Shown here one piece after another: positions 5,064 through 38,479 of a stretch of 38,670 nt of DNA; within the stretch, counting starts at the first letter, position 1, and the number at the start of each line of letters is the position of its first letter. This DNA comes from Actinomycetota bacterium (GTDB taxonomy: Bacteria; Actinomycetota; Actinomycetes; Propionibacteriales; Propionibacteriaceae). The notes under the pieces are model-generated. The model searched no databases. It was given only the letters and a program-made list of their open reading frames with translations, and was not told where the DNA came from. Location: positions 1 through 38,670 of the forward strand of contig JAIUOT010000010.1 in NCBI GenBank assembly GCA_020161015.1, given 5' to 3'. Position numbers and translations under genes: made by a program.

Positions 5064-5393
5064 TTAGTGATGACCAGCGTTTAGGAATGCTGCATATACC
5101 GATCGAAGCGCCGTCGCATAGTCGAGATATCGCTGAGCGGTTTCCTTGTCGCTCTCCTTCGTGAACCGCAGGCCAGAGACCTCGCCGGACAGACCGTCGA
5201 GAGCGGCAAGTACGTCGGGGATCGCGGGTTCCCAGACGCCTTGATTCACGAAGGGCAGGACCGATTCGGCCACCCAGGTGTCGTAGAGGGCGAGGTTGGC
5301 GTGCAGTTCATTCAAGGCGTCGTGCGCACTTCCGGGAGGGAACGAGGTCCGGCGCCAGCGTGCAACCGCATCCTCAAGCGTGATCATGTTCAC
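5064..5393 (-). CDS. Candidate immunity protein for the RHS toxin
   Basis: A 109-aa, mostly helical, mildly acidic cytoplasmic-type protein with no signal peptide. Its GTG start (5393) overlaps the RHS stop as GTGA; an in-frame ATG two codons later is an alternative. Polymorphic-toxin loci place the gene protecting against the C-terminal toxin tip directly after the toxin gene, and that position and coupling are the evidence here. The sequence contains LHANLALYDTWVAESVLPF and ends LRSVYAAFLNAGHH. I do not recognise the immunity family. The expected role is to bind and neutralise the toxin tip inside the producing cell. Confidence 0.65.
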   Translation of the reverse strand: MNMITLEDAVARWRRTSFPPGSAHDALNELHANLALYDTWVAESVLPFVNQGVWEPAIPDVLAALDGLSGEVSGLRFTKESDKETAQRYLDYATALRSVYAAFLNAGHH

Positions 5394-18536: not shown

Positions 18537-21500
18537 TCAGATGGGGATGCCTCGGTCGGGCCGGTGGTGGATGCCGGGGATGGGTTCGGGTGGTCGGCGT
18601 GGGGTGGTGATGGGGCTGGTTGTCCAGCGTTCGGCGGTGGGGTCGTGGCGGTGGACGCGGTAGTCGAGGGCGGAGGCGATGCCGCTTACGGGTACGGGGC
18701 CGTCCTGGAGGGCTCGGTCGAGGACGTCTGCGGCGTCGCCGCCGAGGGCGGCGATGTCTTGGAGGTGCCCGGCGAGCAGGGGGAGTCTGGGGTCGTTGGC
18801 GAGGTAGCGGCCGAGGTGCGCGAGTTGGCGCCACCAGGGGGTGATGTCGGGCATGCCGGCTTCGGTGAGCTGGTTGTCGAGCCGGTGTTGCCAGCGGAGA
18901 CCGGCTGCGGTGCCGACGGGTGGTCCGGTGGGCCGCAGGTCGTGGTCGGGAACCGCGTTGGCGGCTCTCCACAGGGCCAGGTCGGCGGCGAGCTGGTCGG
19001 GGAGGTGGAGGCGGGTCTGCCAGGCGGGTGTCTGGGCGGGTGCGTCGTGGCGGAGTTGCTGGGCGAGTTGGGCGATCTGCTGGGCGCGGGCCTCGAGGTA
19101 GGGGCCCCAGGTCGGGTTGTCGCTGAGCCTGGCGGGGATTCCGGCGACCCAGGGGAGTGGTCCGGCGGGCAGTCGTCGGGTGGGGTCGATGCGCCAGTCG
19201 AGGACCGCGGCGGCGTCACGGACGCCGTCCAGGCTGTCCTGGGCGACGGCGTCGCGGAGCACGGCGACCGGATCGGCTCCGGTGGCGGCGATCTGGAGGA
19301 GGTGGCCGCGGAGCGTGGGCCAGGCGGGCTCGCTGCTGAGCCACAGCACCATCTGGTCGGCCTGCTCTTCCAAGCGCGCGACGGCCGCTGGGCCGAGGTG
19401 GTGTTCGGCGCCGACGGCGAGCCCGTCGACGTACTTGGCGATGGCGGGTGCGATCAGCTTCGCCGGATCGTGGGCGTGACGTTGGTGGCTGCTCGCGGAC
19501 ACGCCTTCCTCGTCGTGGCCGACGATGCGTTCGAGGATGTCCTCGGCGGCGCGGACGGTGAGGGTGTCGTAGTCGATGGGGTCGGGGTGGCCGTCGCCGG
19601 TGACGGTGATGTGGAGGTGGTTGGCGTGTCGTCCGCGGGTGGCGGCGGTGTAGAGCTGCTGGCGGGTCTCGGCGCCGTCGATGAGGGTGTGGCTGGTGTC
19701 GGCGGTGACGCCTTGGGCGGTGTGGATGGTGGTGGCGTAGCCGAGTTCGGTCCAGGCTTCGACGTAGTCGGCGGGCAGCTCGACGCTGCGCCGGCCGCGG
19801 AGGTCGCTGGCGGTGATCGAGCCGTCGGGGCGGACGGCCGAGACCGTCCACCGGTCGCCGTTGGCGACCCAGGCGCCGTTGCGGGTGCGCAGGGCCCGGT
19901 TGTTGCGGCGGGTGATGATCACATCGCCGACGCTGGCCCGGTTGCCGTCAGCCAGGGCAACCTCGAGTCCGGGTGGTGCCCCGGCCAGGCGAAGGGTGCG
20001 GGCGTGGTGGTTCAGTTGGGCGACGAGGTCGCGGGTGCTGGCGAGCATGATCGCGTCCAGGCCGCGTTGCCGGTCGCGCGTCCAGGAGCCCAGGATCTGG
20101 CTGGTGATGCTGGTGCTGTCGGCGGGGTGGAGGCGTTGGTTGTCGACGTAGAACGCGATCGCGGCGGGGTCACCGTCACGGAGGGCGATGCTGGCCGCGG
20201 CCTCGGCGGGGTCGGTGAACCGGAGGACTTCCTCGAGGCGGACGGTGCCGTCGGTGTGGGCGAGGTCGGTGAGGATGCCGCCGGCTGCGACGGCGGTGAG
20301 CTGGTGGTCGTCGCCGATCACGCGAACGCTGCCACCGAGGGTGGTGACCACGTTGACGATCAGGTCGAGGGTGGGGGTGTCGGCCATGCCGGCCTCGTCG
20401 ATGATGACCAGGCTGCCGGGCCCGATCGTGAGGGTCCACTCGGGTGCGGTCTCGGGATGGTCGAGGCTGTGCGCGAGTTTCGCGAGCGTCTCGCAGGGGG
20501 CGCCGTCGAGGTGTCCGGCGAGGACGTGCGCGGCTGCTGCTGAGGGCGCTAGACCGATGACGGTGCCGCCACCGCTCGTCCAGGCGTCAGCGAGCACCGT
20601 CAGGGCGGTGGTCTTGCCGGTGCCGGCCGGGGCGATGGCGAGCTGGAGTCGACGCCCGGAGGTGGCGAGTTCGCGGACGAGTCGCGCCTGCCCGTCGTTG
20701 AGGCTGACCCCGTTCGCGACAGACTCGAGTAGCGCCAGGTCGACGTGCTCGGGGTCGACGGTGCGTCCGTCCGTCAGGGCTGCGGTGGACAGCAGGCGTT
20801 TCTCGGCGGCGATGATGCGTCCGGAGCTGTAGGTGGTGGCTCCAGCCAACTCGTACACGCTGTGCCCGTCACGGCGGCGCAGGACGTCGGGTTCGGCGAC
20901 GTCGTCGTCGGGGTCGAGCTGGAACGAGGTGGTGTGCAGGACGTAGCCGACGATCTGGTCGACGATCGGCTCGACCTGATCGGGGGCGATGGGGAGCGCG
21001 GCGAGTTGGCGCAGCGCTTCGGCGCGCACGTGCCAGCCCTGCCAGGTCGCCCGGCTGCTCTCCAACTCGGCGGTAACGGTGGCGGCGATGTGGCCGAGCG
21101 GTTCGCCGTCCAGGTTCACCGCGGGCTGCGGGTGCGGGGTGAGAGCTTGGCGGATCATCCGGTCGACACCGTCGGGTCCGAGGTGCTGGTCGGCCTCCTG
21201 GCGCCAAGTGGCGCGCTGCTCGGCGAGGGTTCGGGGTTCGTGTTTGGCCTGCCTGGTGGCGAGGTTGGCCTGCTGGGCGAGGTGGATCATCTCAAGCCCG
21301 GTGGGCGGCCGGCCATGATTGGCCCGGAAGGCGATGGCCAGGGTCGCGGCCTCGTCCTCGATGTCGGCGCGCCGCGACGACCAGCGGGCGCACAAAGACA
21401 GGTCGACGCCGTCGATCTCCCACACGGGACGTCGTCCGTTCCGCGATGCCCGGGGAACCCAGCGCACCCCGAGCGTTTCGGCCAGGTGGGCGCGGAGCAG

Positions 21501-22412
21501 CGCGTCGTAGGTTTCCGAGGTGGCGACGTGTGACTTGTAGAAGGCGCGTCCGTCTATCGCCAGCCAGCGGCCCTCGACGTTCTGGACCTTGTTCGCGACC
21601 GCGACGTGGGTGTGCAGGTCCGGGTCGCCAGCGCGGGAGTCACGGTGGACGAACGCGGTCGCGACCATGCCGCGGGTGTCGACCTGTCGTACACCGTCGG
21701 TGCCGGTCCGGGTGAACAGGGCGTCGCGTTCCTGGTACGCCAGCGCGCCCCGGACAGCGGCCTGGTGGCAGCGCTCGATCATCGCCGCCACCTGCGGGTC
21801 GGCCAACGCCCACAGCGCCGACACCGACTTGGGTGGGGAGAACACCTCGTCGTAGCCGGCCACCGTGACCGGGGCACGCTTCGACCAGCGGGCGATCTCA
21901 CCGAGCAACTCGGTCTCGCCCACCGGCTCGCGCCCGTGGGCGCGGACGAAACACTCCCTGCCCACCTGCGAGCGAAGCGCGGACTTCACATCTTCAGGCA
22001 GCTTGGCCCGGACCGGACGGCCCGCCGCCGCGTTCCACGCCCTGCACCTGGCCGCCAGTTCCTGGGTGAACTCGTTGCCGGTGGCGTCGCGCTTCCGAAA
22101 CGGCGCCCCCAACCGGCCCGCCGCCTCCACCTCGGACGGTGACAGGCCGGCGGCTGCCGCCGTCGCGTGGAGTTGGTCGGCGTTGGGGTGCTCGCCATCT
22201 CCGAACAGGTGGTTCATCTGGGCCTCGGTCACCTGCTCGCCAGCCGTGATGCCGAGGCCGGCCAGGCCGGTGCCGATCCAGGTGCCGGGAGCCTCACCCC
22301 GCTCGGTGTAGTAGGAGGTCAGGCCACCAGCGGGCACTCGGGCGTCCTGTACCGCCACCTGGCCGATCAGGTAGTCATACACTGGCCCGCTGGCCAGCTT
22401 CTTCACCGACAT
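18537..22412 (-). CDS. MobF-family conjugative relaxase-helicase (TrwC/TraI type)
   Basis: A 1291-aa protein that nicks the transfer origin and unwinds the strand to be transferred. The N-terminal relaxase domain has paired tyrosines Tyr34-Tyr35 in TSYYTERGE. The histidine metal site HRDSRAGDPDLHTHV lies near 230-250. The C-terminal helicase has Walker A APAGTGKTT near 595, motif II VIIDEAGM near 672 and a late UvrD-like YATTIHTAQGVTADTSH. The tail is Arg/Pro-rich. The chosen ATG (22412) gives MSVKKLASG, typical of the family; GTG at 22415 or 22427 is possible, and AGGAGG is at 22428-22433. No coupling protein or type IV secretion gene is seen nearby, so the element is probably mobilisable rather than self-transmissible. 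Confidence 0.9.
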   Translation of the reverse strand: MSVKKLASGPVYDYLIGQVAVQDARVPAGGLTSYYTERGEAPGTWIGTGLAGLGITAGEQVTEAQMNHLFGDGEHPNADQLHATAAAAGLSPSEVEAAGRLGAPFRKRDATGNEFTQELAARCRAWNAAAGRPVRAKLPEDVKSALRSQVGRECFVRAHGREPVGETELLGEIARWSKRAPVTVAGYDEVFSPPKSVSALWALADPQVAAMIERCHQAAVRGALAYQERDALFTRTGTDGVRQVDTRGMVATAFVHRDSRAGDPDLHTHVAVANKVQNVEGRWLAIDGRAFYKSHVATSETYDALLRAHLAETLGVRWVPRASRNGRRPVWEIDGVDLSLCARWSSRRADIEDEAATLAIAFRANHGRPPTGLEMIHLAQQANLATRQAKHEPRTLAEQRATWRQEADQHLGPDGVDRMIRQALTPHPQPAVNLDGEPLGHIAATVTAELESSRATWQGWHVRAEALRQLAALPIAPDQVEPIVDQIVGYVLHTTSFQLDPDDDVAEPDVLRRRDGHSVYELAGATTYSSGRIIAAEKRLLSTAALTDGRTVDPEHVDLALLESVANGVSLNDGQARLVRELATSGRRLQLAIAPAGTGKTTALTVLADAWTSGGGTVIGLAPSAAAAHVLAGHLDGAPCETLAKLAHSLDHPETAPEWTLTIGPGSLVIIDEAGMADTPTLDLIVNVVTTLGGSVRVIGDDHQLTAVAAGGILTDLAHTDGTVRLEEVLRFTDPAEAAASIALRDGDPAAIAFYVDNQRLHPADSTSITSQILGSWTRDRQRGLDAIMLASTRDLVAQLNHHARTLRLAGAPPGLEVALADGNRASVGDVIITRRNNRALRTRNGAWVANGDRWTVSAVRPDGSITASDLRGRRSVELPADYVEAWTELGYATTIHTAQGVTADTSHTLIDGAETRQQLYTAATRGRHANHLHITVTGDGHPDPIDYDTLTVRAAEDILERIVGHDEEGVSASSHQRHAHDPAKLIAPAIAKYVDGLAVGAEHHLGPAAVARLEEQADQMVLWLSSEPAWPTLRGHLLQIAATGADPVAVLRDAVAQDSLDGVRDAAAVLDWRIDPTRRLPAGPLPWVAGIPARLSDNPTWGPYLEARAQQIAQLAQQLRHDAPAQTPAWQTRLHLPDQLAADLALWRAANAVPDHDLRPTGPPVGTAAGLRWQHRLDNQLTEAGMPDITPWWRQLAHLGRYLANDPRLPLLAGHLQDIAALGGDAADVLDRALQDGPVPVSGIASALDYRVHRHDPTAERWTTSPITTPRRPPEPIPGIHHRPDRGIPI

Positions 22413-22433
22413 CACCGCAGCTGCCACCTCCTC

Positions 22434-25701: not shown

Positions 25702-27405
25702 CTAGGCGGTTGAGCGTTGGCGGGCTTGGTAGTTGTTGTTGCCGCCGGAGAGGTTGTAGACCGTCCCGAACCCGAGGCGCAGCAGGATGTTCTGGCCGGC
25801 GTTTCCGGAGACGCCCTTGTTGCAGTAGGTGACGGTGGGGGTTCCTGGGTCGAGTTCGCCGATGCGGTCGCGGAGGTTGGCGAGAGGGATATGGATGGCG
25901 CCCTCGATGTGGCTCTTGGCGTAGTCGCGGCCGGAGCGGACGTCGACGATCTGGAGGGTGTCACCCGCCTCCAGGCGCGCGTCGAGATCTTCGGGGGTGA
26001 TGAGTGGCGCCTTGCCGGTGAGGGCGTTGTCCAGGGCCATGCCGGTGTAGTGGATGGGGTCCTTGGTGGTGGCGAAGGGCGGGGAGTAGGCCAGGTCGAG
26101 GTGGAACAGGTCCTCGGCCTTGGCGCCGAAGCTGATCGCTGTTGCCAGGACGTCGATGCGTTTGTCGACGCCTTGGGGGCCGATGGCTTGGGCGCCGAGG
26201 AGTCGTCCGGTGCCGCGTTCGGCGATGGCTTTGATGATCAGGTCGCGTCCGCCGACGTAGGTGGCGTGGGCCGGCTTGATGTTGTGGACGACCTGGATGT
26301 CGAAGCCCTGGGCTCGGGCTTCGGTCTCGGTGAGCCCGGTGTGTCCGACACCCATCTCGAAGACGCGAACGATGCCGGTGCCCAGGATGCCGCGGTGGGT
26401 GAGGGTCCCGCCGGTGATGGCGTCGCCGGCGATCCGGCCCATCTTGTTGGCGGTGGAGCCGAGTGGGCGCCAGATGGGGTTCCCGGTGATGAGGGAGTAG
26501 CTTTCGGCGACGTCGCCGACGGCGTAGATGTCGTCGACGGTGGTGCGCAGGGTGTGGTCGACCTTGATGGCGCCGGTGGGGCCGAGTTCGGCGCCGACCT
26601 GGAGGGCGAGGGTGGTGTCGGGCCGGACGCCGACCGACAGGATCACCACGTCGGCGGGGAGGGTGTCGCCGTTGTCGAGTTGCACACCGGTGACGCTGTC
26701 GGCGGTCGTGTCGACAGCGGTCACGCTGCGGGCCAGGTGGACTGTCACGTGGCGGCGGACGAGTTCTTCCTGGACACGGAAGGCCATGTCGGGGTCCAGG
26801 GCCGGCATGACTTGTGGCAGGCGTTCCACGAGCGTCACCTGGAGGCCGGCTTCGGTGAGTTGTTCGGCCATTTCGAGTCCGATGAACCCGGAGCCGACCA
26901 CGACCGCGGTCTTGGCTCGGCGGGTGAGGATCCAGGCCCGGATGGCCTCAGCGTTCTGCACGTTGCGGACGGTGAACACCCCGGGGGCGTCGACGCCGGG
27001 GATGGGCGGGAGGATGCTGCGGGCTCCGGTGGCCAGGACGAGGGTGTCGTAGGTGTCGGTGAACTCTGTCCCGGTGGCCAGGTCGACGACCCGAATCGTC
27101 CGGGTGGGGTGATCAACGGAGACCACTTCGTGTCCGGTGCGGATGTTCATGTTGTAGCGCTTGGCGAACCAGGCGGGGTCGCGGGGGTGCAGCTCGTCGG
27201 CGTCGGCGACCTGGCCGCCGACGTAGTAGGGGAGCCCGCAGCCGGAGTAGGAGATGTCACGGTCGCGGTCGTAGACGACGATCTCGAGTTGTTCGTCGTT
27301 GCGGCGCGCCTTCGCACCCACGGAGGTGCCGGCGGCGACGGCGCCGATGATCACCAACCGCCGGACGGGGTGGATGGCGGGCTGGGACGGGGCAGTGCTG
27401 GGCAT
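25702..27405 (-). CDS. CoA-disulfide-reductase-like flavoprotein fused to rhodanese
   Basis: A 567-aa fusion. The N-terminal FAD domain starts RRLVIIGAVAAGTSVGAKAR (GxxxxG variant) and has the single redox cysteine Cys56 in SYSGCGLPYYVGG, the CoA-disulfide-reductase signature. The NAD(P)H-binding site is VVVGSGFIGLEMAE, then a dimerisation domain (AYSPPFATTKDP). Residues about 465-567 are a rhodanese with active Cys528 in TYCNKGVSGN. It may reduce low-molecular-weight disulfides or persulfides and so keep thiols available for arsenate reduction (inference). The start is ATG 27405, six bases after GGAGG; the longer frame to 27447 lacks a site. It lies 87 bp after arsC, probably in one operon. 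Confidence 0.85.
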   Translation of the reverse strand: MPSTAPSQPAIHPVRRLVIIGAVAAGTSVGAKARRNDEQLEIVVYDRDRDISYSGCGLPYYVGGQVADADELHPRDPAWFAKRYNMNIRTGHEVVSVDHPTRTIRVVDLATGTEFTDTYDTLVLATGARSILPPIPGVDAPGVFTVRNVQNAEAIRAWILTRRAKTAVVVGSGFIGLEMAEQLTEAGLQVTLVERLPQVMPALDPDMAFRVQEELVRRHVTVHLARSVTAVDTTADSVTGVQLDNGDTLPADVVILSVGVRPDTTLALQVGAELGPTGAIKVDHTLRTTVDDIYAVGDVAESYSLITGNPIWRPLGSTANKMGRIAGDAITGGTLTHRGILGTGIVRVFEMGVGHTGLTETEARAQGFDIQVVHNIKPAHATYVGGRDLIIKAIAERGTGRLLGAQAIGPQGVDKRIDVLATAISFGAKAEDLFHLDLAYSPPFATTKDPIHYTGMALDNALTGKAPLITPEDLDARLEAGDTLQIVDVRSGRDYAKSHIEGAIHIPLANLRDRIGELDPGTPTVTYCNKGVSGNAGQNILLRLGFGTVYNLSGGNNNYQARQRSTA

Positions 27406-27492
27406 GGTGAACCTCCACGGAACGGTGGCACGACGATGAGACGCCAAGGTGACCGGCAGGCAACCAGGCGGTGACCGGCCCGCCGCGATTGG

Positions 27493-27897
27493 CTAGCTGG
27501 CGGGTGCGAGTTCGGCGATCAGGGCTTCGACGCGTCCGCGGATCTTGTCGCGGATCGGGCGAACAGCTTCGATGCCCTGCCCGGCCGGGTCGTCGAGGAC
27601 CCAGTCCTCGTAGCGTTTGCCCGGGTAGAACGGGCACGCGTCGCCGCAGCCCATGGTGATCACCACGTCGGAGGCCTTCACCGCATCCGTGGTGAGGATC
27701 TTGGGCTGCTCGTTGGCGATGTCGATGCCCTCTTCGGCCATCGCGAGGACGGCCATGGGGTTGACCGCATCGGCGGGCGTGGAGCCGGCCGACAGCACCT
27801 CGATCCGGCCCTGGCCGAGGTGGCGCAGGTAACCGGCAGCCATCTGGGAACGGCCGGCGTTGTGGATGCACACGAACAGGACGGTGGGCTTGCTCAT
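27493..27897 (-). CDS. arsC: Arsenate reductase ArsC, LMW-phosphatase fold
   Basis: A 134-aa arsenate reductase converting arsenate to arsenite. The P-loop CIHNAGRSQ carries nucleophile Cys10, and the redox cysteines are Cys84 and Cys88 in GCGDACPFYPGKRYEDW, with the product-loop DDPAGQ after them. This is the thioredoxin/mycothiol-coupled class rather than the glutaredoxin class. ATG 27897 has GAGGAG eight bases upstream. It is the first gene of a minus-strand unit that continues into the flavoprotein-rhodanese fusion, and it is divergent from the ArsR-phosphatase fusion, so the 102-bp gap between them is a shared control region. Confidence 0.93.
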   Translation of the reverse strand: MSKPTVLFVCIHNAGRSQMAAGYLRHLGQGRIEVLSAGSTPADAVNPMAVLAMAEEGIDIANEQPKILTTDAVKASDVVITMGCGDACPFYPGKRYEDWVLDDPAGQGIEAVRPIRDKIRGRVEALIAELAPAS

Positions 27898-27999: not shown

Positions 28000-28671
28000 A
28001 TGTCAATCTGGAACCTTGAAGACAGGGCACGAGCCTACGCCGCGCTCGGGGACCCGTCCCGGCTGGCGATCATCGGCCTGCTGGCGAACGCCGACCTGGC
28101 CTCCGGCGAGCTGGGGAACCAGCTGGACATCCCGACCAATCTGGTTGCGCACCATCTGCGCGTGCTGGAGGAGGCCGGGCTGATCCTGCGCAGACGATCC
28201 GAGGGTGACGGCCGCCGGACCTACGTCACCCGTACGCCCGCCTGCAACCAGTTGCTCGGCGCACCCAGTCACCTGCCGCGCCCACACAAGGTGGCGTTCA
28301 TCTGCTCGCAGAACTCCGCCCGCTCCCAGCTCGCCGAGTCCTACTGGCGAACCGTCAGCGACATCCCGGTGCTGTCGGCTGGCACCCACCCCGCAAGCCG
28401 TGTCCATCCCCGCGCGATCACGGTGGGGCGGCGGCACGGCCTCGACCTCACCACTGCCCGGCCCCGGCTCGCCGCCGACGTGCTCAGTGGTGACGAGCTG
28501 GTCATCGCCGTGTGTGACCGCGCATACGAAGACCTCGACAACCAACCGCTGCACTGGTCGGTCCCCGACCCTGCCCTCGCCGAGAACATGAGTGCTTTCG
28601 AGGGCGCCTACGACGACATCGCCGGCCGGATCACCCGGCTGGCCGCCAGCTTCGAAGGAGAAGCCTCATGA
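28000..28671 (+). CDS. ArsR repressor fused to a LMW-phosphatase domain
   Basis: A 223-aa fusion. Residues 1-85 are a winged helix of the ArsR type (ALGDPSRLAIIGLL, recognition helix VAHHLRVLEEAGLI, wing RRRSEGDGRRTYV). Residues 96-223 are a LMW protein-tyrosine-phosphatase/ArsC-like domain with P-loop CSQNSARSQ (Cys102) and a late DPA. The second domain lacks the GCGDACP redox pair of true ArsC, so it may sense arsenate or an oxyanion rather than reduce it. The HTH part has no CVCDL As(III) site. It follows a strong promoter, GGAGG is nine bases upstream of ATG, and its stop overlaps the next arsC as ATGA. Similar fusions are known in actinobacterial arsenic clusters. Confidence 0.87.
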   Translation: MSIWNLEDRARAYAALGDPSRLAIIGLLANADLASGELGNQLDIPTNLVAHHLRVLEEAGLILRRRSEGDGRRTYVTRTPACNQLLGAPSHLPRPHKVAFICSQNSARSQLAESYWRTVSDIPVLSAGTHPASRVHPRAITVGRRHGLDLTTARPRLAADVLSGDELVIAVCDRAYEDLDNQPLHWSVPDPALAENMSAFEGAYDDIAGRITRLAASFEGEAS

Positions 28672-29330
28672 CCACCGCCCCACACCCTGTCTCGGAACGC
28701 AGCTGGGAAAGCCTGCACACCCCCGAGAAACTCGCCCTCAAGCAGGCCTCGGCCCGCCTGGCCGACGACTTCGCCGGCCTGTACGGCAAGGAGACCATCG
28801 AACGCTTCCTGGCCAGCTCCTTCGACCAGTTCGCCGATCACGCCAAGGTGACCAGATTCCTGCCGCTGCTGGCCGAACGGTTCGCCCATCAACGCCTCCA
28901 GGCCCTGGCCCGCGTCGAAGGGCTCCATGACGACGGCAAACCCGTCGTGTTGTTCCTGTGCACCCACAACGCGGGCCGCTCACAGATGGCACTCGGGTTC
29001 TTCCAGGCGCTCACCGGCGACAACGCCGTCGCGTGGTCGGGTGGCTCCGAGCCGGGCATCGAGGTCAATCCGGCTGCGATCGCCGCCATGGCCGAGCGCG
29101 GCATCGACATCTCCAGGGAGTTCCCCAAGCCGTGGACGGACGAGACGGTCCGGGCCGCCGATGTCGTGGTCACGATGGGCTGCGGGGATGCCTGCCCGAT
29201 CTTCCCCGGCAAGCGATACGAGAACTGGGACGTCGAGGACCCAGCAGGACAAAGCGTCGAAGACGTCCGCCCCATCCGCGACGAAGTCGAACGCCGCGTC
29301 CGCACCCTGATGGCGTCGTTGAGCCTGTAG
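28668..29330 (+). CDS. arsC: Arsenate reductase ArsC with N-terminal helical domain
   Basis: A 220-aa arsenate reductase. Residues 1-88 form a predicted helical bundle (ADDFAGLYGKETIERFLASS, HQRLQALARVEG) seen in actinobacterial ArsC proteins, where it is thought to aid dimerisation. Residues 92-220 are the catalytic domain, with Cys98 in LCTHNAGRSQ and Cys172/Cys176 in GCGDACPIFPGKRYENW. It is complete at every expected catalytic position. It is translationally coupled to the fusion regulator by an ATGA overlap, so regulator and enzyme are made together. It is the second full arsenate reductase in the window. Confidence 0.92.
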   Translation: MTTAPHPVSERSWESLHTPEKLALKQASARLADDFAGLYGKETIERFLASSFDQFADHAKVTRFLPLLAERFAHQRLQALARVEGLHDDGKPVVLFLCTHNAGRSQMALGFFQALTGDNAVAWSGGSEPGIEVNPAAIAAMAERGIDISREFPKPWTDETVRAADVVVTMGCGDACPIFPGKRYENWDVEDPAGQSVEDVRPIRDEVERRVRTLMASLSL

Positions 29331-31256: not shown

Positions 31257-31574
31257 ATGGTTGATTCAAGATCCACTGAACAACGGGTGGCTGCGGCGGC
31301 ACTGCTCACGGCTGTCGCGGATCCGATCCGACTCCAGTTGCTGCACCTGCTGGTCGGCCAGACCCGCTGTGTGTGTGATCTGCAGCCCGAGCCGGCGATC
31401 CCGGGCAACCTGCTGAGCTACCACCTGAAGGTGCTGCGCGAGGCCGGCCTGATCGAGGGCGCCAAGCGCGGGCGTTGGATCGACTACTCCCTCACCGACG
31501 GCGCGCTGGAGCGCCTGCACGCGGCACTGCCCGATCCGGCAGCGGTGGCACGGCAGCTGACAGTCGTCGGATGA
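31257..31574 (+). CDS. arsR: ArsR-family arsenite-responsive repressor
   Basis: A 105-aa winged-helix repressor. The metalloid site CVCDL is present with Cys38 and Cys40 (TRCVCDLQ), equivalent to the As(III)-binding loop of the classical plasmid ArsR. The recognition region is NLLSYHLKVLREAGLI, and the wing is AKRGRWIDYSL. In the absence of arsenite it should bind its operator; arsenite binding releases it. The stop overlaps the permease start as ATGA, so it is co-translated with the ArsP-type permease. The ATG is preceded by little leader and may be translated with a very short 5' end. Confidence 0.9.
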   Translation: MVDSRSTEQRVAAAALLTAVADPIRLQLLHLLVGQTRCVCDLQPEPAIPGNLLSYHLKVLREAGLIEGAKRGRWIDYSLTDGALERLHAALPDPAAVARQLTVVG

Positions 31575-32623
31575 CCACAGCCACCCGACCCGACTCCCGC
31601 CGCCGGTTGATCCAACGCTGGGCAGCCCTTGCGCTCGCCGCTGTCGCCTGGTGGGTGCTGTACGCGGTCAACCAGCCATTCTGGGATTGGCTGATCGGGG
31701 GAGTGTTCGGCCTCGACCTGGCCTCCCGGCTGGGGAGTGGGGTGCACTTCTTCTTCTACGACACGGTGAAGATCATCCTTCTCCTGGCCGGCATCATCTT
31801 CCTCGTCACGGTGGCGCGCTCGTTCATGAGCGTGGAACGCACCCGCGCCCTTCTCGGCGGCAAACGAGAGGGCATCGGCAACGTCCTGGCGGCCGGCCTC
31901 GGTGTGGTGACCCCGTTCTGTTCGTGCAGTGCCGTGCCCGCGTTCATCGGCTTCGTCGCCTCCGGCATCCCCCTGGGGGTGACGATGAGCTTCCTGATCG
32001 CCAGCCCGCTGATCAACGAGGTCGCGATCGCCCTCCTGCTGGGTCTGTTCGGGCTGGGCCCGACCCTGATGTATGTCGGCGCGGGGCTCGTGATCGCGAT
32101 CCTGGCCGGCTACACCATCGGCCGGCTGAAGCTCGAGCGGTGGGTGGAGCCGTTCGTGTTTGAGACGAAGCTTCGTGGCCAGGTCATCGAATCCACCGCC
32201 GGCCTGTCCTGGGACGACCGGATCCAGATGGGTGTCGAGGAGGTCGGCTCGATCCTGCGCAAGATCTGGCCCTACCTTCTGGTCGGCATCGGGCTCGGCG
32301 CGGCCATTCACGGCTGGGCCCCAGAGGACTTCTTCGCCGCCTACGCCGGCGCCGACAATCCCTTCGCGGTCCTGATCGCGGTCGTCATCGGCGTCCCGTT
32401 GTACTCCAACGCCGCTGGGATCCTGCCGCTGATCGACGCGCTGTACGCCAAGGGCCTGCCGATGGGCACCCTGCTGGCGTTCATGATGGCCACCGTCGCC
32501 CTCAGCCTGCCCGAGATGATCCTGCTGCGCCGGGTGCTCAAGCCCAAGCTGATCGCCGTCTTCGTGTCCGTCACCGCCGTGGGCATCATCGCCGTCGGCT
32601 ACCTGTTCAACGCCATTCTGTAA
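31571..32623 (+). CDS. arsP: ArsP-type permease (DUF318 family)
   Basis: A 350-aa inner-membrane permease with about eight to ten helices. The family signature TPFCSCSAVPAFIGF holds Cys117 and Cys119, and a second conserved block is GVPLYSNAAGILPL. Members named ArsP export trivalent organoarsenicals such as methylarsenite; others are of unknown specificity. The arsM gene in the same island could supply such a substrate, which supports the ArsP reading. It is coupled to arsR upstream and followed by the thioredoxin-like gene, a trio often seen together. The start is ATG 31571, and the frame before it is antisense to nothing useful. Confidence 0.85.
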   Translation: MTTATRPDSRRRLIQRWAALALAAVAWWVLYAVNQPFWDWLIGGVFGLDLASRLGSGVHFFFYDTVKIILLLAGIIFLVTVARSFMSVERTRALLGGKREGIGNVLAAGLGVVTPFCSCSAVPAFIGFVASGIPLGVTMSFLIASPLINEVAIALLLGLFGLGPTLMYVGAGLVIAILAGYTIGRLKLERWVEPFVFETKLRGQVIESTAGLSWDDRIQMGVEEVGSILRKIWPYLLVGIGLGAAIHGWAPEDFFAAYAGADNPFAVLIAVVIGVPLYSNAAGILPLIDALYAKGLPMGTLLAFMMATVALSLPEMILLRRVLKPKLIAVFVSVTAVGIIAVGYLFNAIL

Positions 32624-32646: not shown

Positions 32647-32889
32647 GTGAACATCAAGATCCTCGGCCCGGGCTGCGCCAACTGCGTCAACCTCGAGAAG
32701 GCCGCCAAGCAGGCCGCCTCAGAACTCGGCATCGCCGCCACGTTCGAGAAGGTCACCGACTACGCCGACATCTACTCCTACGGCATCATGAGCACCCCCG
32801 GCCTGGTCGTCGACGAGCAGGTTGTCCTCTCCGGTCGAGTCCCCACCGCCCGCCAGGTCAAGGAACTCCTGGCCCCCTTGGTTGGCTGA
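32647..32889 (+). CDS. Small thioredoxin-like redox protein
   Basis: An 80-aa thioredoxin-fold protein of the TM0996/MTH895 type. The redox motif is GPGCANC (Cys10, Cys13), and the cis-proline region is STPGLVVD. The ending SGRVPTARQVKELL is typical. It begins with GTG 32647, 23 bp after the permease. Proteins of this family accompany DUF318 permeases and ArsR genes; they may hand a metalloid or electrons to the permease or keep its cysteines reduced (inference). Confidence 0.88.
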   Translation: MNIKILGPGCANCVNLEKAAKQAASELGIAATFEKVTDYADIYSYGIMSTPGLVVDEQVVLSGRVPTARQVKELLAPLVG

Positions 32890-33006: not shown

Positions 33007-34122
33007 ATGCTCATCGCTGCCGAGCGTGTGCTGTTACCCACCCACCCCGATTTCGTGGCCGGCTGGGTCGAGGTCGACGGTGACACCATCACCGCGGCAG
33101 GCGAAGGCGCACCGCCGCGCCCAGCCGACCTGACCGTCACGGGGAGCCTGGTTCCCGGCTTTGTGGACGTCCATTGCCACGGCGGGGGCGGCGCCGCGTT
33201 CGCAACCGACGACCCGGCCGATGTCGACACCGCGATCCTGGCGCACCGCGCCACCGGCACCACCTCCGTGGTCGCCTCCCTCATCACGGCATCGATCCCC
33301 GTCCTGCACCGCCAGATCGCCATCCTCGCCGAACGGGTCCGGGCCGGAGACCTGGCTGGCATCCACCTCGAAGGCCCGTGGCTCGCGCCAACCTTCAAGG
33401 GCGCGCACTCCCCGGGACTGCTGTCCGATTCGGTCGCCGACGTCGTGGCCGAGCTGCTCGCATCAGCGGGCGGGGCAGTCAAGATGGCGACGATCGCACC
33501 TGAGCTGCCGGGCGCCATGGCAGCGATCCCGGTCATGATTGCCGGCGGGTGCCTGCCGGCAATCGGACACACCGCCGCCGACTACCCCACGGCCAAGGCC
33601 GCGATCGACGCTGGCGCAACAGGGGCGACCCACATATTCAACGCCATGCCGCCGGTCGGCCACCGCGACCCAGGCCCGATCCTGGCCTTCCTCGAGGATC
33701 CCAGGGTCCGGGCTGAACTCATCTTCGACGGCATCCACGTCACTCCCGAACTCGCGGCCTTCGTGATGCGGATCATCCCGGACCGAGTAGTCCTCATCAC
33801 CGACGCCATGGCTGCTGCCGGAGCCCCCGACGGGGACTACATGCTCGGCGACCTGCCGGTCGAGGTTCGCGACCGCGTCGCACGCCTGGCAGGCAAGCCC
33901 ACGATCGCCGGCAGCACGCTCACCCTCGACTGGGCGGTCCGCAACGCTGTGGCGCAAGGGATCCCGCTTGCCCAGGCGGTCCGCAGCGCCACCAGCGTCC
34001 CGGCCGACTACCTCAGTCTCGGCGGTGTGGGACGGATCGCTGTGGGCAACAAGGCTGACCTGGTCACCCTCGGCGACGACGCGGTCGTCACGGGGGTCAT
34101 GTACCGCGGCGTCTGGCAGTAG
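33007..34122 (+). CDS. nagA: N-acetylglucosamine-6-phosphate deacetylase-like enzyme
   Basis: A 371-aa amidohydrolase that, by family, removes acetate from N-acetylglucosamine 6-phosphate. The metal and catalytic residues are all visible: His56 and His58 (DVHCHGGGG), Glu122 (HLEGPW), His188 (AIGHTA), His209 (ATHIFNAM) and catalytic Asp266 (LITDAM). Full length for the family. ATG 33007 follows GGAGA. It sits inside the arsenic island between the thioredoxin-like gene and arsD, closed off by a strong hairpin downstream. Amino-sugar metabolism has no obvious arsenic role. A link to mycothiol turnover, or simple passenger status, are possibilities. Confidence 0.88.
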   Translation: MLIAAERVLLPTHPDFVAGWVEVDGDTITAAGEGAPPRPADLTVTGSLVPGFVDVHCHGGGGAAFATDDPADVDTAILAHRATGTTSVVASLITASIPVLHRQIAILAERVRAGDLAGIHLEGPWLAPTFKGAHSPGLLSDSVADVVAELLASAGGAVKMATIAPELPGAMAAIPVMIAGGCLPAIGHTAADYPTAKAAIDAGATGATHIFNAMPPVGHRDPGPILAFLEDPRVRAELIFDGIHVTPELAAFVMRIIPDRVVLITDAMAAAGAPDGDYMLGDLPVEVRDRVARLAGKPTIAGSTLTLDWAVRNAVAQGIPLAQAVRSATSVPADYLSLGGVGRIAVGNKADLVTLGDDAVVTGVMYRGVWQ

Positions 34123-34258: not shown

Positions 34259-34636
34259 ATGGTCAGTATTCGTGTCTTCGAGCCAGCCCTGTGCTGCAAC
34301 ACCGGGGTGTGCGGTGAGGACGTGGACCAGGCGCTGGTGGACTTCAGCGCCGACCTCGACTACTTCAAGCAGCAAGGCATCGACATCGCCAGACACAACC
34401 TGGCCAACGACCCGTCCTCCTTCGTTGACAACGCCATCGTGATGAACTTCCTCAACGCCGCCGGCTCCGAAGGCCTCCCTCTGGTCCTGGTCGACGACGT
34501 CACCGTGCTGACCGGCCGGTACCCGACCCGGAACATGCTCGCCCGCTACGCTGGGCAAGCGGCCACGCTTCGACCCCGGATCAACCTGGTGACCGCCGGT
34601 GGTGGCGGTTGCTGCGGCGGCAGCGGCGGTTGCTGA
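34259..34636 (+). CDS. arsD: ArsD arsenite metallochaperone
   Basis: A 125-aa thioredoxin-fold chaperone that hands As(III) to ArsA. Cys12, Cys13 and Cys18 (ALCCNTGVCG) match the three essential cysteines of classical ArsD in number and position. The C-terminus adds a Gly/Cys tail, GGGGCCGGSGGC, with Cys118, Cys119 and Cys125, comparable to the extra vicinal pairs of plasmid ArsD. The start is ATG 34259, seven bases after GGAGG; an ATG at 34253 directly abuts that site and is less likely. arsA follows after 10 bp. Confidence 0.93.
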   Translation: MVSIRVFEPALCCNTGVCGEDVDQALVDFSADLDYFKQQGIDIARHNLANDPSSFVDNAIVMNFLNAAGSEGLPLVLVDDVTVLTGRYPTRNMLARYAGQAATLRPRINLVTAGGGGCCGGSGGC

Positions 34637-34646
34637 GACTCTGGCC

Positions 34647-36398
34647 ATGAACTTCCTGACTGAGCCCACCCGCTTCATCTTCTTCACCGGCAAGGGCGGG
34701 GTGGGCAAGACCTCCATCGCCTGCGCGACCGCGCTACAGCTGGCTGAAGCCGGCCGAAGGGTGCTGCTGGTCAGCACCGATCCCGCCTCCAACGTCGGCC
34801 AGGTGTTCGGCCAGACGATCGGCAACACCATCACGCCGCTGACCTCGGTTCCGGGCCTCGACGCACTCGAGATCGACCCGGAGCAGGCAGCTGCGGAGTA
34901 CCGCGAACGGATCATCGGCCCGGTACGAGGCCTGCTGCCCGAACCGGAGATCGCCTCCATCACCGAGCAGCTCTCCGGCTCGTGCACCACCGAGATCGCG
35001 TCGTTCAACGAGTTCACCGGCCTGCTGGCCGACCCGAGCCTTGTCGCCGACTACGACAACGTCATCTTCGACACCGCCCCCACCGGCCACACCATCCGAC
35101 TCCTGAAGCTGCCCGGCGACTGGACCGGCTTCCTGGATGCCGGCAAGGGCGACGCCTCATGCCTCGGGCCGCTGTCCGGCCTCGAGAAACAACGCAAGCT
35201 TTACAGCGGAGCAGTCGAAGCGTTGGCCGACCCGTCCATGACCCGGCTGGTATTGGTCGCGCGAGCCCAAGCCTCCAGCCTGGTCGAGATCGCCCGGACG
35301 GCCGAGGAGTTGACCACCACCGGCATCAAGCCCAGCAACGTGGTCATCAACGGCGTCCTGCCCACCAACGCCGGAGCCAACGACAGCCTCGTCCTCGCCA
35401 TCCGCGATCGCGAACGGGCAGCAGTCGCTGACATGCCGGTCTCCCTGGCCGGCGTCCCGCGGGACATCATCGAACTCAAGCCCGAGAACATGGTCGGCCT
35501 GGCTGCGTTGCGATCCCTGTTTGAGGGCACCACCGCCGTCCCGAGCGAAGCCATCGCAGTACCTCAGGAAGACATCGCGCCCACGCTCGATGCCATGGTC
35601 GACGAGCTTGCCGCCGATGGGCACGGGCTGATCTTGTGCATGGGCAAAGGCGGAGTCGGGAAGACCACCATCGCCTCGGCGATCGCTACCCGCCTGGCCG
35701 AGTTGGGCCACGACGTCCACCTCACGACGACGGATCCGGCCGGCCACCTGGAGAACACGATGGGGGATGGGTGCGGGCTGCCGAGTCTCAGCATGTCCCG
35801 GGTCGATCCGCAGCGGGCCGTCAAGGAGTACCGCGAGCACGTGATGGCCACGAAGGGCAAGAACCTGGACGATGCGGGTCGGGCCCTGCTTGCGGAGGAC
35901 CTGATGTCGCCGTGCACCGAGGAAGTCGCGGTGTTCCAGCAGTTCTCCCGCCTCGTCAACGAGGCTCGCCGCAAGTTCGTGGTGATGGACACCGCACCCA
36001 CTGGGCACACCCTGCTGCTGATGGACGCCGCCGGCTCCTACCACCGCGAGATCGAACGCAACATGCCTGCCGGCACCCTCTACACCACCCCGATGATGCG
36101 CCTGCAGGACCCCGACTACACCAAGATCCTGCTCGTGACCCTCCCGGAAACCACCCCGGTCCTGGAAGCCAGCATCCTGGAGGACGACCTCAAACGGGCC
36201 GGCATCCAGCCTTGGGCCTGGGTCGTCAACCAATCCCTCACGGCCTCGGATACCACCTCACCACTTCTGCGGCACCGCGCCAGCCAGGAACACGGCCCCC
36301 TCGACGCCGTACGGGCCCGCGCCCGCCGGCTGGCCATCGTGCCGCTCCTCCAGGAGGAACCAACCGGACCCAGGCGCCTCGCCATGCTGGCGTCCTAG
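34647..36398 (+). CDS. arsA: ArsA arsenite-stimulated ATPase
   Basis: A 583-aa duplicated ATPase that energises arsenite efflux. Each half has a deviant Walker A: GKGGVGKTS at 15-23 and GKGGVGKTT at 333-341. Both halves have the DTAPTGHT signal sequence. The three metalloid-binding cysteines are present at Cys113 (SGSCTTEIASF), Cys172 (DASCLGPLSG) and Cys423 (MSPCTEEVAVF), almost exactly the classical 113/172/422. It should be fully functional. Its usual membrane partner ArsB or Acr3 is not encoded in the window, so the channel it drives is unknown. ATG 34647 is the start. It is co-transcribed with arsD and followed by two YlbF-like genes. Confidence 0.95.
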   Translation: MNFLTEPTRFIFFTGKGGVGKTSIACATALQLAEAGRRVLLVSTDPASNVGQVFGQTIGNTITPLTSVPGLDALEIDPEQAAAEYRERIIGPVRGLLPEPEIASITEQLSGSCTTEIASFNEFTGLLADPSLVADYDNVIFDTAPTGHTIRLLKLPGDWTGFLDAGKGDASCLGPLSGLEKQRKLYSGAVEALADPSMTRLVLVARAQASSLVEIARTAEELTTTGIKPSNVVINGVLPTNAGANDSLVLAIRDRERAAVADMPVSLAGVPRDIIELKPENMVGLAALRSLFEGTTAVPSEAIAVPQEDIAPTLDAMVDELAADGHGLILCMGKGGVGKTTIASAIATRLAELGHDVHLTTTDPAGHLENTMGDGCGLPSLSMSRVDPQRAVKEYREHVMATKGKNLDDAGRALLAEDLMSPCTEEVAVFQQFSRLVNEARRKFVVMDTAPTGHTLLLMDAAGSYHREIERNMPAGTLYTTPMMRLQDPDYTKILLVTLPETTPVLEASILEDDLKRAGIQPWAWVVNQSLTASDTTSPLLRHRASQEHGPLDAVRARARRLAIVPLLQEEPTGPRRLAMLAS

Positions 36399-36484
36399 GT
36401 GGCTCGCAAGACTCCAACCAACGGCGGTGCGCAGACCCGGCCCCGCCCACACATCGCTCGTCGCTCAAAGGAGACCCGACAACA

Positions 36485-36886
36485 ATGCTGAATCCCACCA
36501 TCCAGGCACCGGCCCAGGCCGAAGCCGGGGCCCTCGCCGCGGCGGCCGCGCTCGGCGCCGCACTCAAGGCGAGCCCCGAGTTCACTGCACTTCTCGCTGC
36601 CGATCAGGCGATCTCCCTCGACCCTGAGGCGGAGGCCGCGATCGCGGCGTTCGACCGCCTCCAGCAGCAGTTGAGGACCGAGATCACGACGGGGCTTCTC
36701 CAGGAATCCCAGCGGGCTGAACTGGCCCACTGCCAGCAGGCCCTGTACGCCGTCCCCTCGGTGGCGGCGTATGTGGCGGCAACCGAAGCCTTCGAGGCCG
36801 TCTGCCGCGAAACGGCGTCCATCGTCAGCACCGAGATCGGCATGGACTTCGCCGCCAACAGCCGCTCCGGCGGCTGCTGCGGCTGA
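36485..36886 (+). CDS. YlbF-like protein with Cys tail
   Basis: A 133-aa mostly helical protein resembling the YlbF/YmcA (RicA/RicF) family: SPEFTALLAADQAISLDPEA, IAAFDRLQQQLRTEITTGLL and VAAYVAATEAFEAVCRETAS. An Ala-rich N-terminus precedes it, and the C-terminus ends RSGGCCG, recalling the tail of ArsD in this operon. In Bacillus, RicA/F/T bind iron-sulfur clusters through cysteines and aid RNA maturation; here the location after arsA suggests metalloid handling (inference). The start is ATG 36485 with AAGGAG upstream. It lies 86 bp after arsA and 15 bp before a second homologue. Confidence 0.75.
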   Translation: MLNPTIQAPAQAEAGALAAAAALGAALKASPEFTALLAADQAISLDPEAEAAIAAFDRLQQQLRTEITTGLLQESQRAELAHCQQALYAVPSVAAYVAATEAFEAVCRETASIVSTEIGMDFAANSRSGGCCG

Positions 36887-36901
36887 CGGGAGATAGACAC
36901 A

Positions 36902-37273
36902 ATGCTCTCAACCGAACTGCGCGACGCAGCCCTCGCGTTCAGCCACGCCCTCCGCGAGGCCCCGGCCGTCGCCGACTATGTCGCCGCAAGCACAGCGTTA
37001 GCAGAAGATCCGTCCGCGCAGCAGGTCATGCTCGCTCTGCAGGGCCCGCAAGCCAGCTACCTGCGCACCCAGCAGGCGGGCCTCACCCCAAGCCAGGAAC
37101 AGGTGGACCAACTCCGCCGCTGCCAGGCAGCCGTCCGGGCGAACGAGGTGCTCATGAACCACCTTCGGGCCACGAACACCGTGAAGAAGTTCCTCCCGGT
37201 CGCGGCCCGCGAGGTCAGCGCTTCGCTCGGCGCGGACTATGTCAGCATGATCGCACCGCCGAGCAGCTGCTGA
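36902..37273 (+). CDS. Second YlbF-like protein
   Basis: A 123-aa helical protein of the same fold as its upstream neighbour: LRDAALAFSHALREAPAVAD, STALAEDPSAQQVMLALQGP and VRANEVLMNHLRATNTVKKF. It ends APPSSC, with a single terminal cysteine, and has one more Cys in LRRCQAAV. The two YlbF-like proteins may form a heterodimer, as RicA and RicF do. ATG 36902, 15 bp after the previous stop, with GGGAG nearby. It is the last gene of the arsDA unit and converges on arsM with a 6-bp gap. Confidence 0.72.
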   Translation: MLSTELRDAALAFSHALREAPAVADYVAASTALAEDPSAQQVMLALQGPQASYLRTQQAGLTPSQEQVDQLRRCQAAVRANEVLMNHLRATNTVKKFLPVAAREVSASLGADYVSMIAPPSSC

Positions 37274-37279
37274 GACGGG

Positions 37280-38074
37280 TCAGGCGGCCGGCTTGCGGCC
37301 CTCGATCGATGCCGACACCACGTAGTCGGTGATCGGTGCGCCGGGGGCCCACTCGGCCATGAAGGCCTTGCTCTCCTCCTTGGGTGCCACCACGACCTGC
37401 TCAAAGCCGGCCTCCTGGAGCAGCCGTTCGACCACGCCGACTTCCTCCGCACCCGAGATGCAGCTGGACAGCAGCGCCATGTCGTCGCGCACCTCGTCAG
37501 GGATCTTGGCGAAGGCAACAACGTCGGAGACGGCCAGCCGGCCACCCGGGCGCAGCACCCGGAAGGCCTCGGCGAAGACGTCGACCTTGTCCGGTGACAG
37601 GTTGATCACGCAGTTGGAGATGATCACGTCGACACTGGCATCAGCCACCGGCAGGTGCTCAATCTCGCCCAGCCGGAACTCGACGTTGTCGTAGCCGTCC
37701 TGTTGGGCGTTGGCGCGGGCCTTGCTGATCATCTGCGCGGTCATGTCCACCCCGATGACCCGTCCGCCCGGGCCCACCTGGCGGGCGGCCAGGAAGCAGT
37801 CGAAGCCGGCGCCGCTGCCCAGGTCGAGCACGATCTCGCCTGGCTGCAGGTTGGCGATCGCCTGCGGGTTGCCGCAACCGAGCCCGAGGTTCGCGCCCTC
37901 GGGAACGGCGACGAGATCCTGCGGGGAGTAGCCGAGCTGAAGAGACAGAAGTTGGGGTGTTTGGGCGCCTGGCGTGCAGCACGAGGTGTCGCAGCAGCCG
38001 GACGAGGATTCGGCGATCTGGCCGTAGTTCTCGCGGACGGCTTCACGGATCTGGTCGCTATCGGTCGTGCTCAC
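37280..38074 (-). CDS. arsM: ArsM arsenite S-adenosylmethionine methyltransferase
   Basis: A 264-aa class I methyltransferase that adds methyl groups from SAM to arsenite. SAM motif I is VLDLGSGAGFD at 82-92. The three cysteines used for As(III) binding are all present: Cys67 (LGLGCGNPQA), Cys155 (ISNCVINLSPDK) and Cys205 (LSSCISGAEE). The N-terminus carries further vicinal cysteines, SSSGCCDTSCC, as in many ArsM. GTG 38074 has GGAG seven bases upstream. It lies 12 bp after arsR on the same strand, so it is probably repressed by that regulator. The methylated products could leave through the ArsP-type permease. Confidence 0.94.
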   Translation of the reverse strand: MSTTDSDQIREAVRENYGQIAESSSGCCDTSCCTPGAQTPQLLSLQLGYSPQDLVAVPEGANLGLGCGNPQAIANLQPGEIVLDLGSGAGFDCFLAARQVGPGGRVIGVDMTAQMISKARANAQQDGYDNVEFRLGEIEHLPVADASVDVIISNCVINLSPDKVDVFAEAFRVLRPGGRLAVSDVVAFAKIPDEVRDDMALLSSCISGAEEVGVVERLLQEAGFEQVVVAPKEESKAFMAEWAPGAPITDYVVSASIEGRKPAA

Positions 38075-38086
38075 TTCTCTTCTCCA

Positions 38087-38446
38087 TCAGCAGCAGCTCA
38101 GTTGGAGGACGCCGGCGATCGCCTGGATCGCCTCGGGCACCACCCGGTAGTAGACGGTTGTCCCTTGACGGTCCTTGGTGACCAAGCCCGAGTCCAGCAA
38201 GGTGCGCAGGTGGAAACTCACGGTCGGCTCGGTCAGATTCAGCAGGGGTGCCAGCTCCCTGGTGGATGCCCCATGGCCAAGCCGGTCCAGCAGCAGGCTC
38301 ACCACACGGAGCCTCACCGGATCCGCCAACGCCTTGAGGCGGACGGCCAGGGCGACCGCGTCGTCATCAGACAGCCCGGGGGACTCCTCCAGCGTCGGGC
38401 AACAGATCGGCTGGGTATCCAGCAGCATCGGCAGCGTCTTGGGCAC
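38087..38446 (-). CDS. arsR: ArsR-family repressor with N-terminal Cys pair
   Basis: A 119-aa winged-helix repressor controlling arsM and itself. The recognition region is ADPVRLRVVSLLLDRLG, LNLTEPTVSFHLRTLLDSGL and the wing KDRQGTTVYYRV. Cys15-Cys16 (PICCPT) match the N-terminal pair of the Corynebacterium glutamicum type ArsR, but its third ligand near residue 55 is missing; instead the C-terminus ends LSCC (Cys118-119). The start is GTG 38446, seven bases after GGAAGGA; a TTG at 38473 would extend it. An AT-rich dyad lies just upstream. Confidence 0.9.
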   Translation of the reverse strand: MPKTLPMLLDTQPICCPTLEESPGLSDDDAVALAVRLKALADPVRLRVVSLLLDRLGHGASTRELAPLLNLTEPTVSFHLRTLLDSGLVTKDRQGTTVYYRVVPEAIQAIAGVLQLSCC

Positions 38447-38462
38447 GCACCCATCCTTCCAC

Positions 38463-38479
38463 TGATTAGACAAATATCA
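38463..38479 (-). promoter_or_regulatory. AT-rich dyad before arsR-arsM
   Basis: TGAT and ATCA bracket a 17-base AT-rich patch (TGATTAGACAAATATCA on the plus strand) immediately upstream of the arsR ribosome site. It is the probable operator/promoter region of the divergent arsR-arsM unit. It lies only 49 bp from the IS end, so the IS insertion stopped just short of disrupting it. Confidence 0.5.

Follow-up and report, generated by a model that had tools for sequence, protein, structure and literature searches.

Positions 1 to 38,670 of contig JAIUOT010000010.1, from an actinomycetotan draft genome of the family Propionibacteriaceae (assembly GCA_020161015.1), were analysed as one 38,670-nucleotide stretch, referred to here as the window. 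It carries an ars locus in which arsD, arsA and two genes of the YlbF/YmcA family, here called ylbF1 and ylbF2, follow one another on the + strand; beyond them, arsM and an arsR-family gene run in the convergent direction. The intergenic gaps are 10 bp between arsD and arsA, 86 bp between arsA and ylbF1, and 15 bp between ylbF1 and ylbF2. The features at the center of this work are:

34259..34636, + strand: arsD, As(III) metallochaperone family (PF06953, 1.7e-39; NF033727, 121.5 bits, cut-off 90)
about 34647..36398, + strand: arsA, two-domain arsenical pump-driving ATPase (TIGR04291, 810 bits, cut-off 650)
36485..36886, + strand: ylbF1, 133 aa, YlbF/YmcA family, HcsL-like (PF06133, 5e-15, 56.3 bits)
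36863..36883, + strand: C-terminal tail of YlbF1, RSGGCCG, with two vicinal cysteines (read from the sequence)
36902..37273, + strand: ylbF2, 123 aa, YlbF/YmcA family, partner of YlbF1 (PF06133, 1.4e-10, 42.0 bits)
37268..37270, + strand: last codon of ylbF2, a terminal cysteine, the protein ending SSC (read from the sequence)

A first-pass annotation, made from the sequence alone, had recognized two adjacent YlbF/YmcA-type genes after arsA and the cysteines at the ends of their products; both statements are borne out, as the two proteins exceed the gathering cut-off of the Pfam family PF06133, Com_YlbF (23.9 bits), and the tails read as described. Neither protein matches any Pfam family other than PF06133 at E <= 0.01, and a test for homology to ArsD (PF06953) failed. 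A GGAG motif lies 11 nt upstream of the ATG of ylbF1. Across the 3.67 Mb draft genome no other protein matches PF06133 at E <= 0.001, which makes a chance adjacency of ylbF1, ylbF2 and arsA implausible, and chance open reading frames or a misread frame are ruled out by the Pfam scores together with the occurrence of this pair, 63.7-95.1% identical, in three relatives. The genome bin has a completeness of 96.46 and a contamination of 2.8, and contamination could still account for the window contig taken alone; weighed against this, a genome of the same genus (G675) has the pair on a 678 kb contig, its ArsA being 94.0% identical, and G618 and G678 also carry the pair, on contigs of at least 159 kb.

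In NCBIfam, YlbF1 best matches the model of HcsL (NF041416; 9.2e-16, 58.3 bits, below its cut-off of 140), whereas YlbF2 best matches the general YlbF/YmcA model (NF010209; 7.9e-6, below cut-off) and reaches only 2.8e-5 and 24.5 bits with HcsL. Single-chain AlphaFold2 models built from seven-row alignments display helical cores and weak tails, with a mean predicted local distance difference test score (pLDDT) of 88 for YlbF2 and 81 for YlbF1, falling under 50 for residues 125-133 of the latter. The predicted fold is the helical one of the YlbF family: the top Foldseek matches are RicF, RicA/YmcA, SP1372 and DUF964 chains with template-modeling (TM) scores of 0.45-0.73, at probability 1.00 yet none at E <= 0.001. 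The best PDB match of YlbF2 is Bacillus subtilis RicF (6prk_A; TM 0.69/0.73, E 0.004), and the first ten for YlbF1 are all YlbF-family chains, with SP1372 (2iaz) and YmcA (2pih) at E 0.02-0.06. Profiles searched against PDB sequences retrieved YmcA from the alignment of YlbF1 with HcsL (3.9e-8) and YheA from that of YlbF2 with HcsS (2.6e-12).

The distribution of PF06133 was surveyed in five overlapping and hence non-independent samples, all within one bacterial phylum, with matches in 7/396 genomes of the phylum, 1/394 of the class, 4/293 of the order, 1/97 of the family and 3/66 of the class to which genome G151 belongs. An adjacent YlbF pair is found in seven genomes, that of the window (G000), G675, G618, G678, G151, G499 and G516, four of them belonging to one family. 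arsA adjoins the pair in all seven, although in G151 only the end of arsA is seen, at the contig edge. Among five genomes with a single YlbF gene (G282, G029, G356, G239 and G275), none has an arsA match in the available flanks, which extend up to 1.5 kb per side in two and 3.4 to 7 kb per side in three. Within the order sample, ArsA exceeds the TIGR04291 cut-off in 42 genomes, of which 4 have the pair, while of the 251 others none does; in the class of G151 it occurs in three of four ArsA genomes (G499, G516 and G326 are above the cut-off, and the ArsA of G151, cut by the contig end, is below it) and in none of the other 62.

Three layouts occur. In the window, G675 and G678 the pair comes directly after arsA (arsD-arsA-ylbF1-ylbF2), G618, G499 and G516 have arsR-ylbF1-ylbF2 in divergent orientation to arsD-arsA, and G151 has arsA-arsR-ylbF1-ylbF2; an arsR-family gene of its own thus lies directly upstream of the pair in four of the seven loci (arsR assignments were checked by Pfam). 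Because the link is kept while gene order changes, we propose that the pair and arsA share a task. A scan of genome contigs yielded only three pair loci, those of G499, G516 and G151, and no further phyla, and plasmid searches with YlbF1 of the window and of G499 gave no match.

The equivalent search with YlbF2 of G499 (tblastn) gave six weak plasmid matches, all haloarchaeal, with E from 0.2 to 7, and in the five of these records that are annotated the matched gene is hcsL. NCBIfam names the haloarchaeal counterparts “halo-CC-star” proteins, HcsL (NF041416) and HcsS (NF041415), and public annotation places them beside arsA, in the order arsD-arsA-hcsL-hcsS. The first-pass proposal of a new ars pair therefore stands as regards the tie to arsA, and falls short as regards novelty, since these counterparts already had names. 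A Halomicrobium HcsL query recovered 25 plasmid records at E <= 0.001 (ten from Halobacterium, many near-identical), and arsA is adjacent in 24: it touches the match in 21, is the neighboring gene in two (H20 and H21), and in the unannotated record H17 the ArsA match stops where HcsL starts.

The window pair resembles HcsL/HcsS in that two genes directly follow arsD-arsA, the first being YlbF-type with two tail cysteines and the second ending in cysteine; the context that marks HcsL in annotated loci, arsA adjacency and a partner with a terminal cysteine, is thus also that of the window. HcsL is, moreover, the best NCBIfam model not only for the window YlbF1 but for 6/6 proteins of G151, G499 and G516, and small pairwise searches between HcsL of three species and the window YlbF1 gave E values of 1.5e-9 to 2.2e-11. 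Yet the window proteins, at 58.3 and 24.5 bits, stay far below the HcsL cut-off, YlbF1 ends in CCG where HcsL ends in CC, and the bacterial partner is a full-length YlbF protein (121-124 aa), whereas HcsS (59-74 aa) resembles the C-terminal part of YlbF proteins. With the HcsS model (cut-off 55 bits), YlbF2 of G499 and G151 score 21.5 (2e-4) and 19.8 bits (7e-4) and YlbF1 of G499 has an E of 2.3e-3, all below cut-off, and the window YlbF2 has no match at E <= 0.01. As they lie below both cut-offs, the window proteins are to be regarded as relatives, not members, of HcsL and HcsS. There are signs, from sequence comparison, that HcsS is a shortened YlbF-family protein occupying the position of YlbF2. 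It may be an ortholog of YlbF2, but only 24-27 residues align with YlbF2 of G499 (E 2.5e-6 for one HcsS and 2.3e-4 for another), and HcsL fits about equally well, aligning over up to about 60 residues with similar E values.

The cysteine tails were compared in 21 pairs, seven bacterial and 14 haloarchaeal (15 of the 25 plasmid records were examined, and 14 supplied a complete pair, the exception being the Natrinema record, which has none), comprising 20 distinct first and 19 distinct second proteins. In all 21, the window included, the first protein has exactly two cysteines within its last 12 residues and the second has cysteine as its last residue. The two cysteines of the first tail are adjacent in 19/21, the tails of G499 and G516 having CGPGGC instead, and the second protein has one tail cysteine in 7/7 bacterial YlbF2 and two or three in HcsS. 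Rare linkage to ars genes and unconserved tails, which the first-pass annotation had named as telling against its idea, are therefore not what is seen for this subfamily within the groups searched (7/7 bacterial pairs and 24/25 haloarchaeal plasmid records beside arsA; tails in 21/21). Its comparison with the Gly/Cys tail of ArsD fared less well: the window ArsD, which has an ALCCNTGVCG motif, does have a Gly/Cys tail, GGGGCCGGSGGC, and a Gly/Cys tail is also seen in ArsD of G675 and G678, but it is absent from ArsD of G618, G499, G516 and four haloarchaea. Homology to the ArsD tail was consequently rejected as the key clue, since that tail is not conserved while the YlbF tails persist. We also rejected the notion that tail cysteines are unique to ars-linked YlbF proteins, as four of the five unlinked YlbF proteins of the same phylum have Cys/His tails: the single proteins of G282, G029 and G239 (L003, L004 and L006) end in CSCGH, CGCGH or CGCSH, another has NCNH, and that of G275 lacks such a tail.

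A tree was built of 30 proteins, including ten of the 14 HcsL but no HcsS. In it, YlbF1 and YlbF2 each form one group that spans both bacterial lineages (bootstrap trees, YlbF1 92%, YlbF2 86% and HcsL 100%; branch supports, YlbF1 90/93 and YlbF2 86/78), with no resolved placement of HcsL relative to the two. This suggests that ylbF1 and ylbF2, inherited as a pair in these genomes, have moved together.

ArsA is a textbook pump ATPase. The thiol triad of the window ArsA is intact, Cys113, Cys172 and Cys423 being conserved in 14/14 ArsA proteins aligned, with and without YlbF neighbors; in E. coli ArsA, C113, C172 and C422 are described as important (PMC2963123). Around arsD-arsA-ylbF1-ylbF2 the window further encodes:

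31257..31574, + strand: arsR-family regulator upstream of arsD-arsA (PF01022, 1.2e-9)
31571..32623, + strand: ArsP_1-family permease, candidate membrane partner of ArsA (PF03773, 3.5e-71 for 31595-32623; start taken from the open reading frame)
32647..32889, + strand: ArsE/MTH895-family thioredoxin-like protein (TIGR00412, 100.8 bits, cut-off 62)
37280..38074, - strand: arsM, arsenite methyltransferase, convergent (NF008823, 367 bits, cut-off 263)
38087..38473, - strand: arsR-family regulator upstream of arsM (PF01022, 1.4e-10)

No match to Acr3 was found in the genome. Two ArsB-like proteins are encoded on other contigs (Pfam ArsB, 95.8 and 82.1 bits, cut-off 22.2), both far under the NCBIfam ArsB cut-offs, the second fitting MamN better. 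In light of the missing Acr3 and these doubtful ArsB-like proteins, the ArsP_1 permease upstream is the likeliest membrane partner of ArsA.

Several other genes lie nearby. Between the ArsE-type thioredoxin and arsD there is a NagA-like amidohydrolase (33007-34122; 220.7 bits, just missing the cut-off of 225.65). Further upstream are a fusion of an ArsR-type helix-turn-helix domain with an ArsC-like domain of the low-molecular-weight phosphatase family (28000-28671), more genes of this phosphatase family (27493-27897 and 28668-29330), and, close to the ars genes, a CoA-disulfide-reductase-like protein with a C-terminal rhodanese domain (25702-27447). About 12 kb ahead of the arsD-arsA-ylbF genes, the window encodes an integrase of phage type (17045-18280) together with a TrwC relaxase (18537-22427), from which we infer that the ars island may travel on an integrative conjugative element. 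An RHS-repeat protein of 2207 aa occupies 5390-12013. Two Nitriliruptoria contigs each have a stop-free frame of about 1450 aa close to their ars genes (L018:8505-12899 and L019:2312-6652); of these, the L018 frame was scanned, hit the NrfD and TtrA models with scores under the respective cut-offs, and possibly encodes a fused molybdoenzyme.

A close precedent for paired YlbF-family proteins with cysteine tails is the heteromeric Ric system of Bacillus, whose RicF (YlbF) and RicA (YmcA) share the Pfam family and predicted fold of the window pair. In B. subtilis RicAFT, the tail cysteines ligate a [4Fe-4S] cluster, cluster 2 being held by C134 and C146 of the RicF tail, the C-terminal C141 of RicA and C167 of RicT, and removal of the RicF or RicA tail abolishes RicT binding (PMC6751060). 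The window pair has the same 2+1 layout of tail cysteines, the resemblance being one of layout alone and not of ligation, and differs in its linkage to arsA, in its vicinal CC and in that the haloarchaeal pair apparently needs no RicT. The supposition that this organism lacks RicT was rejected: a PSP1/RicT homolog with the cysteines CGRECCC...CGRLMCC (CX3CCC...CX4CC) is present on another contig (G000:C61:48007; L033:1309-2202), even though 289/293 genomes of the order have no PF06133 match. Among 14 control genomes, on the other hand, that of Haloferax volcanii has a PF06133 match and no PF04468 match, and the archaeal pair thus seems to work without RicT.

We propose, tentatively and with not quite even confidence, that YlbF1 and YlbF2 constitute a heterodimer of the RicF/RicA type that would bind As(III) through its three tail thiols and work with ArsA. 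In such an ars-dedicated dimer, with the architecture of Bacillus RicF/RicA, each subunit would comprise a helical core and a flexible C-terminal tail, YlbF1 contributing two tail cysteines and YlbF2 one to a three-thiol site between the subunits. Its likeliest ligand would be three-coordinate As(III) (or Sb(III)), which the pair might obtain from the cytosol or accept from ArsD or ArsE-type thiols, and then hand to the ArsA ATPase or hold for it, the membrane partner of ArsA here probably being the ArsP_1-type permease. The proposal draws on the linkage to arsA, kept in three bacterial layouts and seen in haloarchaea, on the conserved tails, on the joint movement that the tree suggests, on the 2+1 layout known from RicAFT and on the lack of an Acr3 match. 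As(III) in particular is favored because vicinal cysteines are without a clear Fe-S precedent, and because three thiolates form the As(III) cage proposed for ArsR proteins (PMC4562236). The pair is comparable to ArsD, likewise a small cysteine protein encoded beside arsA and in some cases Gly/Cys-tailed, albeit of another family and co-occurring with the pair; the ArsD binding site is given as Cys12/13/18 (PMC4562236). Another small accessory gene downstream of arsA, orf7 of the ars1 operon of Bacillus sp. CDB3, is HesB-like and not YlbF, its neighbor orf8 being a putative phosphatase (PMC4562236).

A broader version of the proposal is possible but more doubtful: haloarchaea and bacteria may have in common an As(III)/Sb(III) carrier of two subunits in which the tail-to-tail cluster site of Ric proteins has turned into a three-thiol site feeding ArsA via a non-ArsB permease, HcsS being the second subunit cut to about the last helix and the Cys tail. 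That HcsS fits HcsL about as well as it fits YlbF2 makes this version slightly less likely.

Several observations weigh against an As(III) carrier dedicated to ArsA. The pair is far from universal beside the pump ATPase, being absent from 38 of the 42 ArsA genomes of the order, including G670 of the window's own genus, and from G326 in the class of G151. Conversely, a Natrinema gelatinilyticum YlbF protein ending in GGCCED (L043:5929-6321) has no ArsA match in 12.3 kb, the HcsL-like gene having no arsA within 6 kb. ArsD is present in 6/6 bacterial pair loci extending past arsA, so that a second As(III) chaperone may be redundant, and it is possible that an ArsB-like pump is encoded elsewhere in the genome. 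Furthermore, the window YlbF2 fits the general YlbF/YmcA model better than HcsL, the CGPGGC spacing in G499 and G516 would suit an Fe-S cluster too, the tails of unlinked YlbF proteins also hold cysteines, and a PSP1/RicT with the cluster-cysteine motif is at hand in the genome.

Next after an As(III) carrier or store, the serious rival is iron-sulfur binding, which we nonetheless consider unlikely: the tails would ligate an Fe-S cluster whose fourth ligand came from a further protein, be it ArsA, ArsD or some other, and the pair would serve as an arsenic or redox sensor or guard cluster-dependent work under arsenic stress. The family and the 2+1 layout are those of the RicAFT cluster 2 ligands (PMC6751060), and the CGPGGC spacing in two genomes and the cysteine-containing tails of unlinked YlbF proteins are in keeping with it. 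It is countered by the vicinal CC of 19/21 first tails, an arrangement for which the Ric authors know of no documented example ligating a single Fe-S cluster (the N2 cluster of complex I may be an exception), and by their finding that RicAF by itself could not hold a cluster (PMC6751060). Moreover, it is arsA to which the pair is linked, and its neighborhood in the window showed no gene for Fe-S assembly.

Somewhat less probable is a role as a passive thiol sink, or as a sensor tuning ArsR or ArsA, in place of a carrier feeding the pump. The small size and thiol tails of the proteins, the arsR-family gene directly upstream in four of seven loci, and the lack of any enzyme-like motif noticed in the alignments, without a dedicated motif search, would suit such a role, whereas their strict pairing and their link to arsA point to cooperation with the pump. 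Least probable of all is that the two proteins are acquired RicA/RicF partners of the resident PSP1/RicT that steer RNA processing, the arsenic link merely setting the timing of expression, for although the PSP1 protein with its CX3CCC...CX4CC motif is encoded in the genome and the RicT-RNase Y complex of B. subtilis depends on RicA and RicF (PMC10470536), the PSP1 gene is on a different contig and haloarchaea keep the pair by arsA with RicT seemingly dispensable, to judge from the PF06133 and PF04468 results for Haloferax volcanii.

Our searches found no open-licence paper on halo-CC-star proteins or on ArsA together with YlbF, and, judged by title, none on HcsL with CC-star among the matches listed; PMC6016940, a text match for YlbF plus arsenic, gives YlbF in the matching part as a competence/biofilm annotation. 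What is new here is the bacterial form with two full-length YlbF proteins, the indications that HcsS is a truncated member of the family, and the 2+1 layout of tail cysteines, which by sequence resembles the Fe-S ligands of RicF and RicA. In Halobacterium NRC-1, arsADRC is reported to confer As(III)/Sb(III) resistance, no role being found for arsB and a novel transporter being proposed, in a review whose account of arsenic resistance covers arsADRC and arsR2M (PMC3600143). At its arsADRC locus, hcsL and hcsS directly follow arsA, with overlaps of 4 and then 10 bases, and are located between arsA and the arsR-arsM genes, so that an arsA knock-out may also have touched them. A test organism carrying the pair at an ArsB-independent locus thus exists, and the bacterial pair, both of whose members are full-length, provides comparable biochemical material for the question of which proteins join ArsA to arsenite without ArsB. 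The paired Cys-tailed proteins are good candidates for a little-studied arsenic-handling partner of ArsA, and if this is true it would add a second metal chemistry to a family whose known associations are with Fe-S clusters and with RNA processing.

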